Source of the DNA: Algorimicrobium echini
GTDB lineage: Bacteria > Bacteroidota > Bacteroidia > Flavobacteriales > Flavobacteriaceae
Assembly: GCF_900115185.1 (NCBI RefSeq)
Contig: NZ_FOVN01000001.1
Coordinates: 620,001-684,000, forward strand
DNA length: 64,000 bases
Reading direction: 5' to 3'
Shown here: positions 2,799 through 54,084 of the stretch, piece after piece
Layout: every line of letters begins with the position of its first letter
Numbering within the stretch: position 1 is the first letter of the stretch
Program-made: the position numbers and the translations under genes
The notes under the pieces: generated by a model
What the model was told of the DNA's origin: nothing
Seen by the model: only the letters and a program-made list of their open reading frames with translations
The model's database searches: none

Positions 2799-2855
2799 GT
2801 TCTCGATACTTTCATTTTGAGCTATCGCTAAAATGAACACGCGAACTGACGTGGA
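2799..2855. repeat. palindromic repeat A, copy 1
   Basis: 57 bases beginning GTTCTCGATAC and ending GACGTGGA. 55 of the 57 positions match copy 2 at 3249-3305. It contains two hairpins: TTCATTTTGAGC against GCTAAAATGAA (one bulged G), and CACG against CGTG near the end. It is the first half of an A-B module placed before the GIY-YIG pseudogene. Confidence 0.75.
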
Positions 2856-2893
2856 CTTTTAACAAAACTATATACTTTCAATAAAAACGACGC

Positions 2894-2938
2894 GTCACTT
2901 CGAGTGTCACGACTTTTTTGTCGTGATGTATCGAGAAG
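2894..2938. repeat. palindromic repeat B, copy 1
   Basis: Begins GTCACTTCGAGTG and ends GTATCGAGAAG, the same boundary sequences as copy 2 at 3343-3386. Inside is a perfect hairpin, TCACGAC against GTCGTGA around a T-rich loop. Its end GTATCGAGAA is the exact reverse complement of TTCTCGATAC at the start of repeat A. Confidence 0.7.
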
Positions 2939-2951
2939 CCAAATATTAAAT

Positions 2952-3242
2952 GTGAAATTATCATACGTCTACATATTACTTTGTGCTGACGACTCCTATT
3001 AGACAGGTGTCACTTCCAATATAGAAAAACGCTTTTTAGAACATCAATCAGGAAAATATTTAGATAGTTATACGTTTAAAAGACGACCGTTGACTCTTGC
3101 TTTTTATACGGAATTCACAGATATTCGATTAGCCATTCAAAGTGAAAAGCAAATCAAAAAATGGTCACGCGTAAAGAAAGAAGCCTTAATAAACGGTGAA
3201 TTTGAAAAACTACCGAATTTATCTAGAAAGAAATTTAATTGA
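2952..3242 (+). pseudogene. GIY-YIG endonuclease domain protein, interrupted by one amber codon
   Basis: Reading from GTG at 2952 to TGA at 3240-3242 gives 97 codons with a single in-frame stop, TAG at 3000-3002. The product would be a small GIY-YIG nuclease of normal length. It has YVYILLC, then SY(stop)TGVTSN where YYTG is expected, the catalytic-type Arg in NIEKRFLEH, and the Glu in QSEKQIKKWSR. The amber codon replaces the tyrosine of the YIG element. The gene fits tightly between repeat B (ends 2938) and repeat A (starts 3249). The downstream half has no evident start of its own, so the gene is probably dead. This single-domain family is common in Flavobacteriaceae. Confidence 0.8.
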
Positions 3243-3248
3243 GAAGTA

Positions 3249-3305
3249 GTTCTCGATACGTTCATTTTGAGCTATCGCTTAAATGAACACGCGAACTGAC
3301 GTGGA
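3249..3305. repeat. palindromic repeat A, copy 2
   Basis: Differs from copy 1 (2799-2855) at two of 57 positions. It starts 6 bases after the stop of the GIY-YIG pseudogene. TTCTCGATAC at 3250-3259 forms a perfect 10-base inverted repeat with GTATCGAGAA at 2928-2937, bracketing the gene. Confidence 0.75.
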
Positions 3306-3342
3306 TAACATTATAATCAGATACCCTTAATTAACAATAGGT

Positions 3343-3386
3343 GTCACTTCGAGTGATCTTGAGGAACGAAAGATTGTATCGAGAAG
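3343..3386. repeat. palindromic repeat B, copy 2
   Basis: Shares the ends GTCACTTCGAGTG and GTATCGAGAAG with copy 1, but has a different interior (GATCTTGAGGAACGAAAGATT, hairpin-forming). The A-to-B spacer is 37 bases here and 38 in the first module, so the whole A-B unit is duplicated on either side of the pseudogene. Confidence 0.7.
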
Positions 3387-3438: not shown

Positions 3439-3948
3439 ATGACACCTAAAACACCCGAACAATCCAAAACCATCATGACCGACTTGGTACTACCAAGCGA
3501 AACCAATCCACTTAATAATTTATTTGGAGGCGAACTATTAGCGCGTATGGATCGAGCAGCTAGTATTGCTGCCAGACGTCATAGTCGTCGAATTGTGGTT
3601 ACCGCTTCTGTAAACCATGTGGCTTTTAACCGTTCCGTACCTTTAGGAAGTGTGGTGACTGTTGAAGCTAAAGTATCTCGGGCGTTTAAAACCTCTATGG
3701 AGGTGTTCTTGGACGTTTGGATTGAAGACCGTGAATCTGGCATACGCGATAAAGCAAACGAAGCAATTTACACCTTTGTAGCTGTTGATGAAACCGGACG
3801 ACCAATTCAAGTACCAGAAATTGAACCTGAAACCAAATTAGAAAATGAACGTTACGCAGCAGCCTTAAGACGTAAACAATTGAGTTTGGTTTTAGCTGGA
3901 AAAATGAAACCGAATGATGCTACGGAATTGAAGGCGTTGTTTGAGTAA
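3439..3948 (+). CDS. acyl-CoA thioesterase (hotdog fold)
   Basis: Hydrolyses acyl-CoA to free acid and CoA; cytoplasmic. 169 residues with a single hotdog domain. The diagnostic stretch NPLNNLFGGELLARMDRAAS lies near residue 23, followed by TASVNHVAFNRSVPLGSVV. This matches the YciA/cytosolic ACOT type. Substrate length cannot be read from sequence. ATG at 3439 is preceded by an A-rich region and a -7 element at 3408-3415; the ATG at residue 13 is a less likely alternative. A strong terminator follows. Confidence 0.88.
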   Translation: MTPKTPEQSKTIMTDLVLPSETNPLNNLFGGELLARMDRAASIAARRHSRRIVVTASVNHVAFNRSVPLGSVVTVEAKVSRAFKTSMEVFLDVWIEDRESGIRDKANEAIYTFVAVDETGRPIQVPEIEPETKLENERYAAALRRKQLSLVLAGKMKPNDATELKALFE

Positions 3949-4045: not shown

Positions 4046-4450
4046 TCAACAACCTGGGCAACTAATTGTTTCCTCATCAACAAGGGGTTTTTTCGGAAAA
4101 CCATCTAATTTCCAACCGTCTTTTTTTGTCCAATACTTTTTTCGCATTTCAATATTTTTAATTCTTTTTTCTGATTCGTGTTTCCAAAATGAGTTTGGAT
4201 ATCTATCTATTAATTTTTTGTAATCTTGTATAATTGAATCAGGTTCAATTTCTTTTTCATTAGTTACAATGCTTTCGTAAAGCTTAAAAGGCATTACATA
4301 CAGTTTTTTAATAGAATCCAATTCTTTATCTAAAGTTTTATGAGAATTTTTAAGTTCATTTAATTCGCTTCTCAATAGATTTACGTCATTTCTTTTAGCA
4401 CATCCTACAGTGAGCATAAGAATTAAAATTAGTAGATTATATTTTTTCAT
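4046..4450 (-). CDS. small lipoprotein with coiled coil, unknown function
   Basis: 134 residues. Residues 1-17 are a lipoprotein signal peptide ending in the lipobox TVGC (Cys17). Then come a predicted coiled coil (LLRSELNELKNSHKTLDKEL, about 25-48) and a TPR-like helix (IIQDYKKLIDRYPNSFWKHE) of the kind found in outer-membrane assembly lipoproteins. The C-terminus ends in CPGC. It starts 2 bases after the stop of the HExxH lipoprotein gene upstream, so the two are probably cotranscribed. No family was recognised. Confidence 0.65.
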   Translation of the reverse strand: MKKYNLLILILMLTVGCAKRNDVNLLRSELNELKNSHKTLDKELDSIKKLYVMPFKLYESIVTNEKEIEPDSIIQDYKKLIDRYPNSFWKHESEKRIKNIEMRKKYWTKKDGWKLDGFPKKPLVDEETISCPGC

Positions 4451-4452
4451 TA

Positions 4453-6259
4453 TTATTGACAGTTTGGATTAGAAGATTTAAAAGTATTTATCACGCTTAA
4501 AGTATTTAATCTTTCTTGTTGACTCAAATTAGACCAAGCTACCGTAGAATTTGAATATAAACCTGTAGTAGCGTTGAAAGTGCCACTTCCCATCAGACCC
4601 TCCCATGCCAAAGCTTCATAGACATCATTCGTTTGATTTGGGTCATATTCCATAAGAGCCTGTATAACTATATCCCTATAATGTTGAGCCATGGCTTCAT
4701 GTTGAGGGTCTGAAGGAGTTTGATCATGCGGAACGTCCCACTTCCATCGCATATAATAGTCATATAATCCTTCAAAATTATTCCGTAAATTAATAATATA
4801 ATTACGCCATTGTTCCTCTGTATATTGAGTGTAATTAAGATTAGGTTGATTTGCAGCGCTAAGTAATTTCCTAAAAACTTCTGCATGAATTATTTCATGA
4901 ATAAAAGTTCTTGCTATAGATAAGTTTGGTCTATCTAAATTGTTTTCATTAAAGGTAATAGTTATTAAATAATTTTGCGGAGGGCTTGTTTGCGCATTTG
5001 TACCGCTAATTAAATTTGTATTTGATGTTAATTTTAAATTAGCAACAGACATATCACTATCAAAGTTACTTAAATAATTTGCAAAAGTTGGAGCTTTGCC
5101 CATTTCTATATAAACAGAATTAAGACAAGTGTTATTTTTTAGATCACTATCTAAAATCAATTCTTCATCCCAATCCACCTCACCATCAAGCAACCATGCT
5201 TCTACAGCAGCTTCAGCAAATTCATCATTACCGTTTTCCTCTAAATATGTATCTAACTGATCTTTTAATAAAAGATTGTTTAATAAAAAACACACTTCTT
5301 CTGCTGATAAATTTAAATTAGCTGATGGGCCATTAAATGGTTCCGTTCCAGTGCATTCAAAATCTATATCACCTATCGGTACACATTTACCTTTGCAAGA
5401 AGTAGTAGGAGATGAGGTATTCCCGCCTGTACTACCATTACCATGACCGTTACCAGGATTATAAGGCGGAGGTGTACCTCCATTACTTGGTGCTCCTCCT
5501 CCTGATGGACCACCACTTGGATTACATGTAAATTCAGTAACTATAATTTCCCCTGAATTTGGAGGCGGATTAGTATTTGGATTGCCATCATCCTCATCAT
5601 ATTCACATGCTTGCCCATAAACATGGTTGCCTGAACTACAGGTGTCTGGTATATATTCCATAAGTATGCAATCATCTTGGTATAGCACTTTGGAAAATAG
5701 TTGATTTGAAAAGCCGCCCTCAATTTCGATCATACTAAAACGATTAGAGAAATCTACTTCTTCTCTATTGTCCAAACGAGTAATTTCTTCATCTGTAATA
5801 TCATAATGAACAAGAAATTCTTTATAGCTTCCATCATCTTGTAAACTTAAAAGAATATTCTGTAAACCTTCACCTGAAGGTGTATTAGTAACCAAAAAAG
5901 TGTAGGAATGATATCCGTTTTCAAACTCAATATAAGTCGCGAAATCAGTATCAATGGAAAGACCAGCTTCATTTGAATGAACAGTTCTATTTTGACTTGT
6001 TTTGCTAAATTCAGCTAGTTCAGTTTTTAAAGCACCAATTTTTGACCATACTTTTTTGTTCGCTATAAACTGGTTTTGAGGAATTGTTGAAATGGTAATT
6101 GGTTTCTGTTTGTATTCTTCTGCGGTAACAGCATTTTGGATATCATCATCCTTTTGGCAATTAGTAATAACTAAACAGGCTAGTAAAATTGTAAACCATA
6201 GAAATATAGGTTTAACTTGTTTTGTTTTGTTTTGTTTTGTTTTGTTTTGTAAAATTCAT
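4453..6259 (-). CDS. putative phase-variable surface lipoprotein, HExxH zinc-metalloprotease-like (frame broken as sequenced)
   Basis: The frame is open from 6216 down to the stop at 4453, but has no ATG, GTG or TTG before a TTG at 5895 that lies deep inside the protein. The only plausible start, ATG at 6259 after an A-rich leader, is separated from this frame by six CAAAA units (6220-6249) and runs into TAA at 6212-6214 after 15 codons. Seven or four units would join them. With seven the protein has 603 residues. It would have a basic N-terminus, a hydrophobic stretch (PIFLWFTILLACLVITNC) and then CQKDDD. QKDD after the Cys resembles the lipoprotein surface-export signal described in Capnocytophaga. 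A Gly/Pro/Asn-rich linker and HEIIHAE (4879-4899) follow; QHEAMAQHY comes later. Substrate unknown. Confidence 0.75.
6217..6250. repeat. pentanucleotide tandem repeat (TTTTG/CAAAA), six full units
   Basis: On the plus strand, a partial TTG is followed by six perfect TTTTG units (6220-6249) and one more T. It lies between the ATG at 6259 and the signal peptide of the minus-strand lipoprotein. The unit length is not a multiple of three, so each slip changes the frame. From the ATG to the GTT codon at 6216 there are 43 bases; one extra unit gives 48 and two fewer give 33, both divisible by three. Confidence 0.9.
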
Positions 6260-6371
6260 CTTTTATTTTTAAATGGTTCGCTAACAAACCTAGGCTAAAT
6301 ATACCGTTTATAAAATACGTAGTTATACGTAATTTTTGGGGTTTTGATGATAGTCAAACATCGTAAAAGAG

Positions 6372-6395: not shown

Positions 6396-7622
6396 TTACA
6401 TCCTATAAATCCATTCCGCAGGATTGACCGTTTTGGTTTCTTTAAAAACACTAAAACTCAAAATGGTTTCGCCGTTGGCTGGATTGGTAAATACTTCGCC
6501 TACGGGTTGCTTGGTGCTTACCTTATCGCCTTTCTTCACATATATTTTTGACAAATTAGAATAGGCTGTAATGTAATTACCATGCTGAATTAATAGGGTT
6601 GGGTTTCCGTTTTTAGAGGAGATAACACGCAATACTTCGCCATTAAAAACAGCCCGTACTTGGGCATTTTTTTCGGTAGCAATACGGACGCCTGTACTTT
6701 GTATCATAACACTTGGCACCAATGGAGACGGTTGTTTTCCATAACGGACTTTAACAACCCCTTTTTCAACAGGCCATAATAATTTACCTTTATTAGAAAC
6801 AAAATCTTTGGCTAAAGCTGCTGCTTCTGGTGTTAAGGCAAAACCACTAGATGCGGTTGTTGTTTTCCCCGCTTTTTTGTTGGATGCTGCAATAGCTTCG
6901 CGAATAATTTTTTCTATCTCACGATCAATCTGATCAGCTTCACGTTGCTTTTTCTTTATTTGAGCGGTATAATTCGTTAAATTTTTAGTTATAGAAGCCA
7001 TTAACTCCCTATGCTGAACAAGCTCCTTTTCTAGTTCACGCTGTGCAACGCGGTTTTCTTCAATCAGCTTTTGTTTGTCCGCTTTTTGGCGTAATAAATC
7101 GGTATTGGTTTCTTGAAGTTCGGCTGTTTTGGTTTTTATGGATTCGCCTTGCTCCTTCTGGTAATTGGCATACTGATTTAAATATTGAACACGTTTATAG
7201 GCTTGCTTAAAATTAGTGGACGATAATAAAAACATCACGCGACTTTGCTCACTTTTGCTTTTGTACGATGTTTCAATCATTTTGGCATAACTGGCTTTTA
7301 GTGTTTCCAGTTCATCCCGTAATTCGGTAATTTTATTTTGATTGTCGTTTATTTCTCGCGTTAATAAATTGGCTTGCTGATTGGTAACCTGAATGAGATT
7401 TTTACGCACATTTACGCGGTAATTCACATCTTCAATCAACGATATTTGCGATTTCTGTTTGGTTTTATCCTTAAACAGTAACTCGTTAATTTGTTTAATT
7501 TCGGTACGTAAAGCTTGCCTGCGCTCTTCTAATTCCTGTTGCTTTTTACTTTGCGAAAAGCCTAAAACAGACATCAAAAGAAATCCTAATACTAGAGAAT
7601 ATGTTTGCGTTGGTTTTATCAT
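6396..7622 (-). CDS. EnvC-like murein hydrolase activator (degenerate LytM domain)
   Basis: 408 residues: a signal peptide ending near FSQS at 23-26, a long coiled coil to about residue 250, and a C-terminal LytM/M23 domain at about 285-405. Active M23 enzymes carry HxxxD and HxH zinc ligands. Here the first is GVRIAT and the second reads ILSFSVFKE, so the zinc ligands are missing. That is the pattern of EnvC-type proteins, which are known to activate amidases at the septum without cleaving peptidoglycan themselves. Periplasmic. The upstream genes at 7625 and 8401 are almost contiguous with it, suggesting one operon. Confidence 0.85.
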   Translation of the reverse strand: MIKPTQTYSLVLGFLLMSVLGFSQSKKQQELEERRQALRTEIKQINELLFKDKTKQKSQISLIEDVNYRVNVRKNLIQVTNQQANLLTREINDNQNKITELRDELETLKASYAKMIETSYKSKSEQSRVMFLLSSTNFKQAYKRVQYLNQYANYQKEQGESIKTKTAELQETNTDLLRQKADKQKLIEENRVAQRELEKELVQHRELMASITKNLTNYTAQIKKKQREADQIDREIEKIIREAIAASNKKAGKTTTASSGFALTPEAAALAKDFVSNKGKLLWPVEKGVVKVRYGKQPSPLVPSVMIQSTGVRIATEKNAQVRAVFNGEVLRVISSKNGNPTLLIQHGNYITAYSNLSKIYVKKGDKVSTKQPVGEVFTNPANGETILSFSVFKETKTVNPAEWIYRM

Positions 7623-53664: not shown

Positions 53665-54084
53665 TTATCTATCGGGAAGGCCATAATTAACTTTATACCA
53701 AATACGCTCATGAAAATAATACAAAATCATTTTAGTAATAACTTCCGCAAAACCAATTTTTAAAGCAGCTATTGGATTACCTGAAATGATCCAAGCCAAA
53801 GTCATTGTATCTAAAGTACCAACTAATCGCCAAGTGACTGTTTTAGCTAAATGTCGTTTCCTGCTTTCCAGTGTCTTACCTTCTTTAGATAAGTTTATTT
53901 TATACCAAACACGCTCATGTAAATAATATAAAATACTTTTAGTTGTTACCTCTGCAAGCCCTATTTTAAGACCTGCGTATGGATTACCTGTTACAATCCA
54001 AGACAATAAAATAGTATCAATTGTACCTATTATTCGCCACGTAATAGTTTTAGCAATATGTCTTTTGTATGATTGGTCTTTCAA
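53665..54084 (-). CDS. DUF2061-like membrane protein, internally duplicated
   Basis: 139 residues made of two homologous halves (about 5-62 and 76-133). Each runs KRHIAKTITWRIIGTIDT or KRHLAKTVTWRLVGTLDT, then SWIVTGNP or AWIISGNP, then HERVWYKIN or HERIWYKVN. Each half has about two short hydrophobic helices. DUF2061 genes commonly lie beside sulfate-activation genes, as here (cysC 12 bases away). Function unknown; it may be a sulfate-related membrane component. Confidence 0.82.
   Translation of the reverse strand: MKDQSYKRHIAKTITWRIIGTIDTILLSWIVTGNPYAGLKIGLAEVTTKSILYYLHERVWYKINLSKEGKTLESRKRHLAKTVTWRLVGTLDTMTLAWIISGNPIAALKIGFAEVITKMILYYFHERIWYKVNYGLPDR

Follow-up and report, generated by a model that had tools for sequence, protein, structure and literature searches.

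The DNA analysed here, hereafter the window, is a 64,000-nucleotide stretch of the Algorimicrobium echini genome (Flavobacteriaceae; contig NZ_FOVN01000001.1, positions 620,001 to 684,000). It contains a lipoprotein gene whose start codon is followed by a tandem array of the pentanucleotide CAAAA and whose signal peptide lies in another frame at the sequenced array length. The gene and its downstream partner comprise the following features, all on the minus strand:

6257..6259, minus strand: start codon ATG, in a different frame from the long open frame when the tract has six units; also found before the tract in sister species
6217..6250, minus strand: (CAAAA)6.8 pentanucleotide tract, within the signal-peptide n-region
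6212..6214, minus strand: TAA, at which the ATG frame terminates at the sequenced tract length (OFF)
4453..6216, minus strand: long frame of 587 codons, for a lipoprotein with a lipoprotein export signal (LES) and a variable C-terminal HExxH domain
6142..6159, minus strand: lipobox cysteine and export signal CQKDDD (LVITNC-QKDDD)
5710..6096, minus strand: shared N-terminal domain (YHSYTF), without a Pfam or NCBIfam family
5362..5709, minus strand: linker rich in G, P, N, and S, of low confidence in AlphaFold2 (predicted local distance difference test, pLDDT, <50)
4456..5361, minus strand: variable C-terminal zincin-like domain, with HEIIH at 4885-4899 and a third histidine at 4699-4701; pLDDT mostly >85
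4046..4450, minus strand: partner gene for a small lipoprotein of 134 aa, a candidate immunity protein, starting 2 nt after the toxin-like gene

The repeat and its reading frames

Downstream of ATG 6259, AATTTTA is followed by six CAAAA units and CAA, which Tandem Repeats Finder (TRF) reports as a perfect 34-bp array; the six units that an initial reading made without database searches (the sequence-only reading) had placed between this ATG and a signal peptide are thus exact. The ATG frame translates as MNFTKQNKTKQNKTS and stops at 6212-6214, and the separate 587-codon frame, which begins with the lipoprotein signal peptide VKPIFLWFTILLACLVITNCQKDDD, ends at 4453, both as that reading had described them. 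The long frame is closed upstream by TGA 6258-6256, and the first ATG, GTG, or TTG within it is TTG 5895. The earlier statement that no start codon occurs before residue 107 is therefore right about the absence of an earlier start but wrong in the number, since TTG 5895 is residue 108 counted from the valine. Scripted frame arithmetic joins the long frame to the ATG at four or seven units and not at six, in agreement with the proposed gain of one unit or loss of two. In short, the 5' end of the frame contains a tandem repeat of non-triplet units, in which the gain or loss of a unit shifts the frame.

Such an array is exceptional in this organism. A survey of 864 kb of its genome (the window and a further 800 kb of its contig) found the CAAAA tract to be the sole array of 4-, 5-, 7-, or 8-mers of at least 20 bp, the second-longest array of 4- to 11-mers being 15 bp. 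When 60 sequences of 64 kb were simulated from a fourth-order Markov model of the window, none contained a 4-, 5-, 7-, or 8-mer array of at least 25 bp, against one in the real window. The 20-mer (CAAAA)4 has no second occurrence in the organism's own genome, and among the six genomes of the genus it is found directly behind this ATG only, in three of the six. The repeat is thus far beyond chance, and its placement is not random.

A lipoprotein family with polymorphic C-termini

A profile search with the N-terminal domain recovered about 110 genes, distributed over 65 of the 399 Flavobacteriaceae genomes searched; judged by these searches, this is a Flavobacteriaceae family for which no database name was found. 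The C-terminal parts of 88 members fall into at least 30 blastp clusters, and the domains found there include Tox-MPTase3, Tae4 amidase, AHH nuclease, GH19, M23, DUF6973, HExxH, and a weak SprT-like domain. Because a shared lipoprotein N-domain is joined to at least 30 unrelated C-terminal domains, the architecture is that of polymorphic toxins: a conserved N-terminal region with many unrelated C-domains, toxin domains among them. The window's own HExxH domain has no match to a toxin family in Pfam. Its AlphaFold2 model has a confident fold (predicted template modelling score, pTM, 0.84), and H157, E158, H161, and H223 are invariant across the 17-member C-domain cluster, OFF genes included. 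Pfam and NCBIfam searches with the window protein gave a sub-threshold SprT-like match and nothing else, with no model for the N-domain, and NCBIfam at E<=1 gave no match, the presence of a TANFOR model in that release being unconfirmed.

The lipoprotein export signal of Capnocytophaga is C-X-K-(D/E)2-X (PMC5080379). The window's CQKDDD satisfies this motif and so has the LES signal of Bacteroidota lipoproteins, which bears out the resemblance suggested from the letters of the DNA. In a locus of another genus (L094), a matching HExxH gene is followed directly by a homolog of the partner gene (40% over 82 aa, E 1e-11), so that the partner gene and the matching C-domain type are co-inherited in one other genus. 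The position of the partner gene and the L094 homolog fit, but do not prove, an immunity role. The label of surface lipoprotein gene given in the sequence-only reading agrees with the LES signal and is too narrow in leaving out the polymorphic-toxin-like cassette with its downstream partner gene. On present comparisons the apt description of the locus is a phase-variable polymorphic-toxin-like LES lipoprotein cassette that works like a contingency locus.

Tract length and cassette exchange in sister species

The cassette occupies a site between EnvC-like and thioesterase-like genes that is empty in one genome of the genus (G004) and holds other small genes in two (G002 and G003). In G001 and G005 (UBA5079), the same site holds tandem cassettes of the window's kind. 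Empty, single, or tandem within the genus, it is a hypervariable site with cassette exchange of the sort associated with polymorphic toxins. All genus copies have a common leader, consisting of an inverted repeat like ATTACGTA-N4-TACGTA, TAnnTTTG, the ATG, and CAAAA units. The sequence-only reading had proposed counting units in sister strains; in sister species, at the position where the window has 6 units, the copies in G001 have 2 and 4 and those in G005 have 7 and 8 (the two G005 tracts worked out by hand), and every one of these copies is out of frame. In another G005 gene the tract has decayed and the gene is in frame. Near-identical copies (2 versus 4 units) and close relatives (6, 7, and 8) thus differ in tract length.

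The two G001 copies are the most direct comparison. They share 894 of the 900 bases just after the tract, yet differ in tract length by two units, which indicates that the tract has changed faster than the gene. Beyond these 900 bases, they have different C-terminal halves and different downstream genes. Fragments of 188-211 bp from the 3' end of the thioesterase gene lie between the tandem copies in G001 and G005 (L036 1314-1501; L041 2548-2758), and therefore the cassettes were added by recombination that carried this edge of the site along. A search for tract-length variants of the same gene in the genera around two further genomes (G408 and G362) found no further members.

Recurrence of repeats in other genera

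An early family-wide search for ATG followed by (CAAAA)4 matched the window only and suggested a one-off tract, a view overturned by the profile search, since the units differ in other genera. For 105 members the 5' end was inspected over about 104 bp before the signal-peptide core. Arrays of 4-, 5-, 7-, or 8-mers were present in 13 of these 105 regions, versus 6 arrays in the remaining 322 kb of DNA of the same loci, a 64-fold enrichment (P ~1e-19). The units elsewhere are (CAAA)6, (AACACCG)7, (CAACACG)8, (CTCAAAC)10, and (AAGAACC)11, together with (CAAACGC)4, (CAAACAA)5, (AAATTCC)4, (AACACCAA)3, and (CACCCAA)3, the last with CTTTAAG; the ATG of these homologs lies 3-21 nt upstream of the tract. 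On a quick, approximate tree of the N-domain, the distribution of tracts takes 11 changes to explain, of which well-supported branches force at least 7. Eleven of the 12 units are free of stops in all coding-strand frames, versus about half expected (P 0.003), so that translation can pass the tract whatever its length, and the tracts encode mostly polar or basic residues within the signal-peptide n-region.

Two further loci were observed alongside this survey. A fulvocin C-related lipoprotein gene (L232, on contig 85 of G102; NF033852, E 3e-23) has ATG followed by (CAAA)17, out of frame before the signal peptide. In a family member of G185 (L084, contig C4), the gene is set out of frame by a T9 run within the signal peptide, a possible homopolymer switch.

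The ON or OFF state was assigned to 15 genes in which the sole start lies before the tract, namely 13 genes and the two G005 copies; L149 was left out because it has an in-frame ATG after its tract. Fourteen of the 15, the window included, are OFF, and one (L112) is ON. Tract genes, OFF ones included, have long open frames, mostly of 420-660 codons.

Probable phase variation and its alternatives

We regard slipped-strand translational phase variation of a polymorphic-toxin-like surface lipoprotein, of an antibacterial type, as the probable explanation of the locus; the switch mechanism is supported by the comparison of copies, species, and genera. The contingency-locus design put forward in the sequence-only reading is supported in that lengths differ among sister species and tandem copies, other genera have other non-triplet units, and OFF frames are intact. 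Transcription would start upstream of ATG 6259, and slipped-strand mispairing at replication would add or remove CAAAA units; because each unit change shifts the frame, about one third of tract lengths would join the ATG to the signal peptide. Single cells of this and related bacteria would thus probably turn such genes on or off randomly. Since the tract lies within the n-region cut off by signal peptidase, the same mature protein would be expected at every ON length. The ON product, lipidated at the cysteine of Cys-QKDDD, would be flipped to the outside of the cell and would consist of the shared N-domain, a flexible linker, and the C-terminal HExxH metallopeptidase-like domain. The downstream small lipoprotein, which has its own start codon, would probably be protective even with the toxin-like gene OFF.

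Several observations weigh against this interpretation. The OFF excess has P ~0.02 if one third of genes are taken to be ON, the rows not being fully independent, and with one genome per species in the sample no two tract lengths were seen within one strain. Several tract loci come from metagenome-assembled or fragmented genomes. The ratio of nonsynonymous to synonymous substitution rates (dN/dS) between the window and L074 is about 0.4, which indicates only mild constraint, with dS saturated. The C-domain resembles no structure in the Protein Data Bank (PDB): Foldseek searches with the full model and the C-domain model gave nothing significant, and a PDB search by sequence gave a weak Spartan/SprT match only; the toxin and immunity roles are putative. 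The OFF excess may mean that being ON was costly to the sequenced cells, or it may reflect a different mode of expression.

The same excess keeps alive an unlikely alternative, in which the gene is frozen OFF: the tract would be a relic and the cassette silent or dying, with no use other than to donate sequence when tandem cassettes recombine. Besides the 14 of 15 tract genes that are OFF, the near-identical N-termini of tandem copies and the displaced thioesterase fragments, which speak of recombination at the site, agree with this, as does a homolog in G003 that carries internal stops. However, open frames of the lengths given above and invariant zinc ligands persist in OFF genes, the units are stop-free in all frames, tracts have arisen anew repeatedly, and L112 is ON. 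It is improbable that the ATG is not the start and that ribosomes instead reach the long frame by initiating at a non-canonical codon or by slipping on the A-rich tract, in which case the tract length would be irrelevant. The OFF excess and the A-richness of the tract would suit such a mechanism, but the out-of-frame copies lie in two different wrong frames with no common alternative start, the tracts vary by genus and, to judge from their sequences, most lack a slippery heptamer, and most family members without a tract start at a conventional in-frame ATG in the corresponding position. Least credible is a sequencing or assembly error in a gene with a fixed in-frame tract, for although short repeats are prone to mis-assembly, 34 bp is less than the read length, and in independent genomes the tract at this position varies in length and unit and is out of frame in almost every case.

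Leader and neighbouring genes

The features that flank the lipoprotein cassette are the following:

6285..6292, minus strand: TAGGTTTG, matching TAnnTTTG, conserved across the genus and lying about 25 bp before the ATG; putative promoter element
6316..6333, minus strand: ATTACGTA-N4-TACGTA inverted repeat, a possible operator, in the leader of all genus copies
6396..7622, minus strand: EnvC-like gene (named by eye), at the near edge of the cassette site and in all six genus genomes
3439..3948, plus strand: acyl-CoA thioesterase-like gene (named by eye), at the far edge of the cassette site

The label given to TAGGTTTG is based on TAnnTTTG, the consensus of the Bacteroidota -7 box. The inverted repeat occurs at five sites in the organism's own genome (window 6316-6333; G000 C8:1081142, C9:1192, C16:431, and C17:37603) and upstream of several genes of the genus, where it may be the site for a putative regulator.

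Elsewhere in the window, a GIY-YIG-like small gene (2850-3242, named by eye) has an in-frame stop at about 3000-3002 and is open in G001, G003, and G005. An intergenic repeat of about 110 bp is present at 2799-2906 and 3250-3355 (80% identical), with several copies at the same place in these three genomes. A tandem repeat with a 207-bp unit (1.8 copies, 75% matches) lies at 53692-54066.

Relation to known systems

The locus resembles the simple sequence repeat (SSR) contingency loci of Haemophilus influenzae and Neisseria, in which a non-triplet 5' repeat in a surface-protein gene sets a frame-dependent ON or OFF state (PMC2651432, PMC5320596). The SSR contingency loci known so far belong to Proteobacteria and mostly affect lipopolysaccharide, adhesins, receptors, or methyltransferases, whereas the present one concerns a polymorphic-toxin-like lipoprotein of Bacteroidota, with a repeat unit that varies from genus to genus. 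The Bacteroides invertible promoters (PMC10939037, PMC8375218) also give phase variation of surface components in Bacteroidota but act by recombinase-mediated DNA inversion at the level of transcription, unlike the repeat slippage at the level of translation proposed here.

Among toxins, the SitA proteins of Myxococcus (PMC8546572) offer a likeness of architecture: they are polymorphic toxins with a lipoprotein N-terminus, and their operons carry an immunity gene, a role for which the window's partner gene is a candidate. SitA toxins work from the outer membrane's inner leaflet via TraAB exchange, whereas the window's family has a surface export signal and frame-switching repeats. The TANFOR toxins of Bacteroidetes, as outlined in PMC7073777, share with it the phylum, a conserved N-domain, and a variable, toxin-type C-domain, and have a downstream immunity gene where the window has a candidate one; that outline names no such repeats, and the window protein has no NCBIfam match. 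The fulvocin C-related bacteriocins (NF033852) are not homologous to the window protein, and L232 shows the same switch design on an antibacterial-type lipoprotein. The open-access papers searched yielded no earlier description of SSR phase variation in Flavobacteriaceae or of phase-variable polymorphic toxins, subscription papers being outside that search.

Phase variation by repeat slippage is classic in host-adapted Proteobacteria, and the well-known switches of Bacteroidota are DNA inversions. Since slippage tracts with unrelated units recur on weapon-like surface proteins, bacterial conflict, rather than host immunity, is suggested as the selecting force. There is perhaps an even chance that Flavobacteriaceae bet-hedge their contact weapons in this way: lineage-specific repeats that arise again and again in the cleaved-off n-region would arm a minority of cells, and immunity, remaining on throughout, would let OFF cells survive their ON siblings. 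A single reading would then take in at least one bacteriocin of the fulvocin type besides the polymorphic lipoprotein toxins, an extension that we hold to be neither favoured nor disfavoured. The loci described here are a ready set in Flavobacteriaceae for asking whether arming is confined to part of a clonal population.
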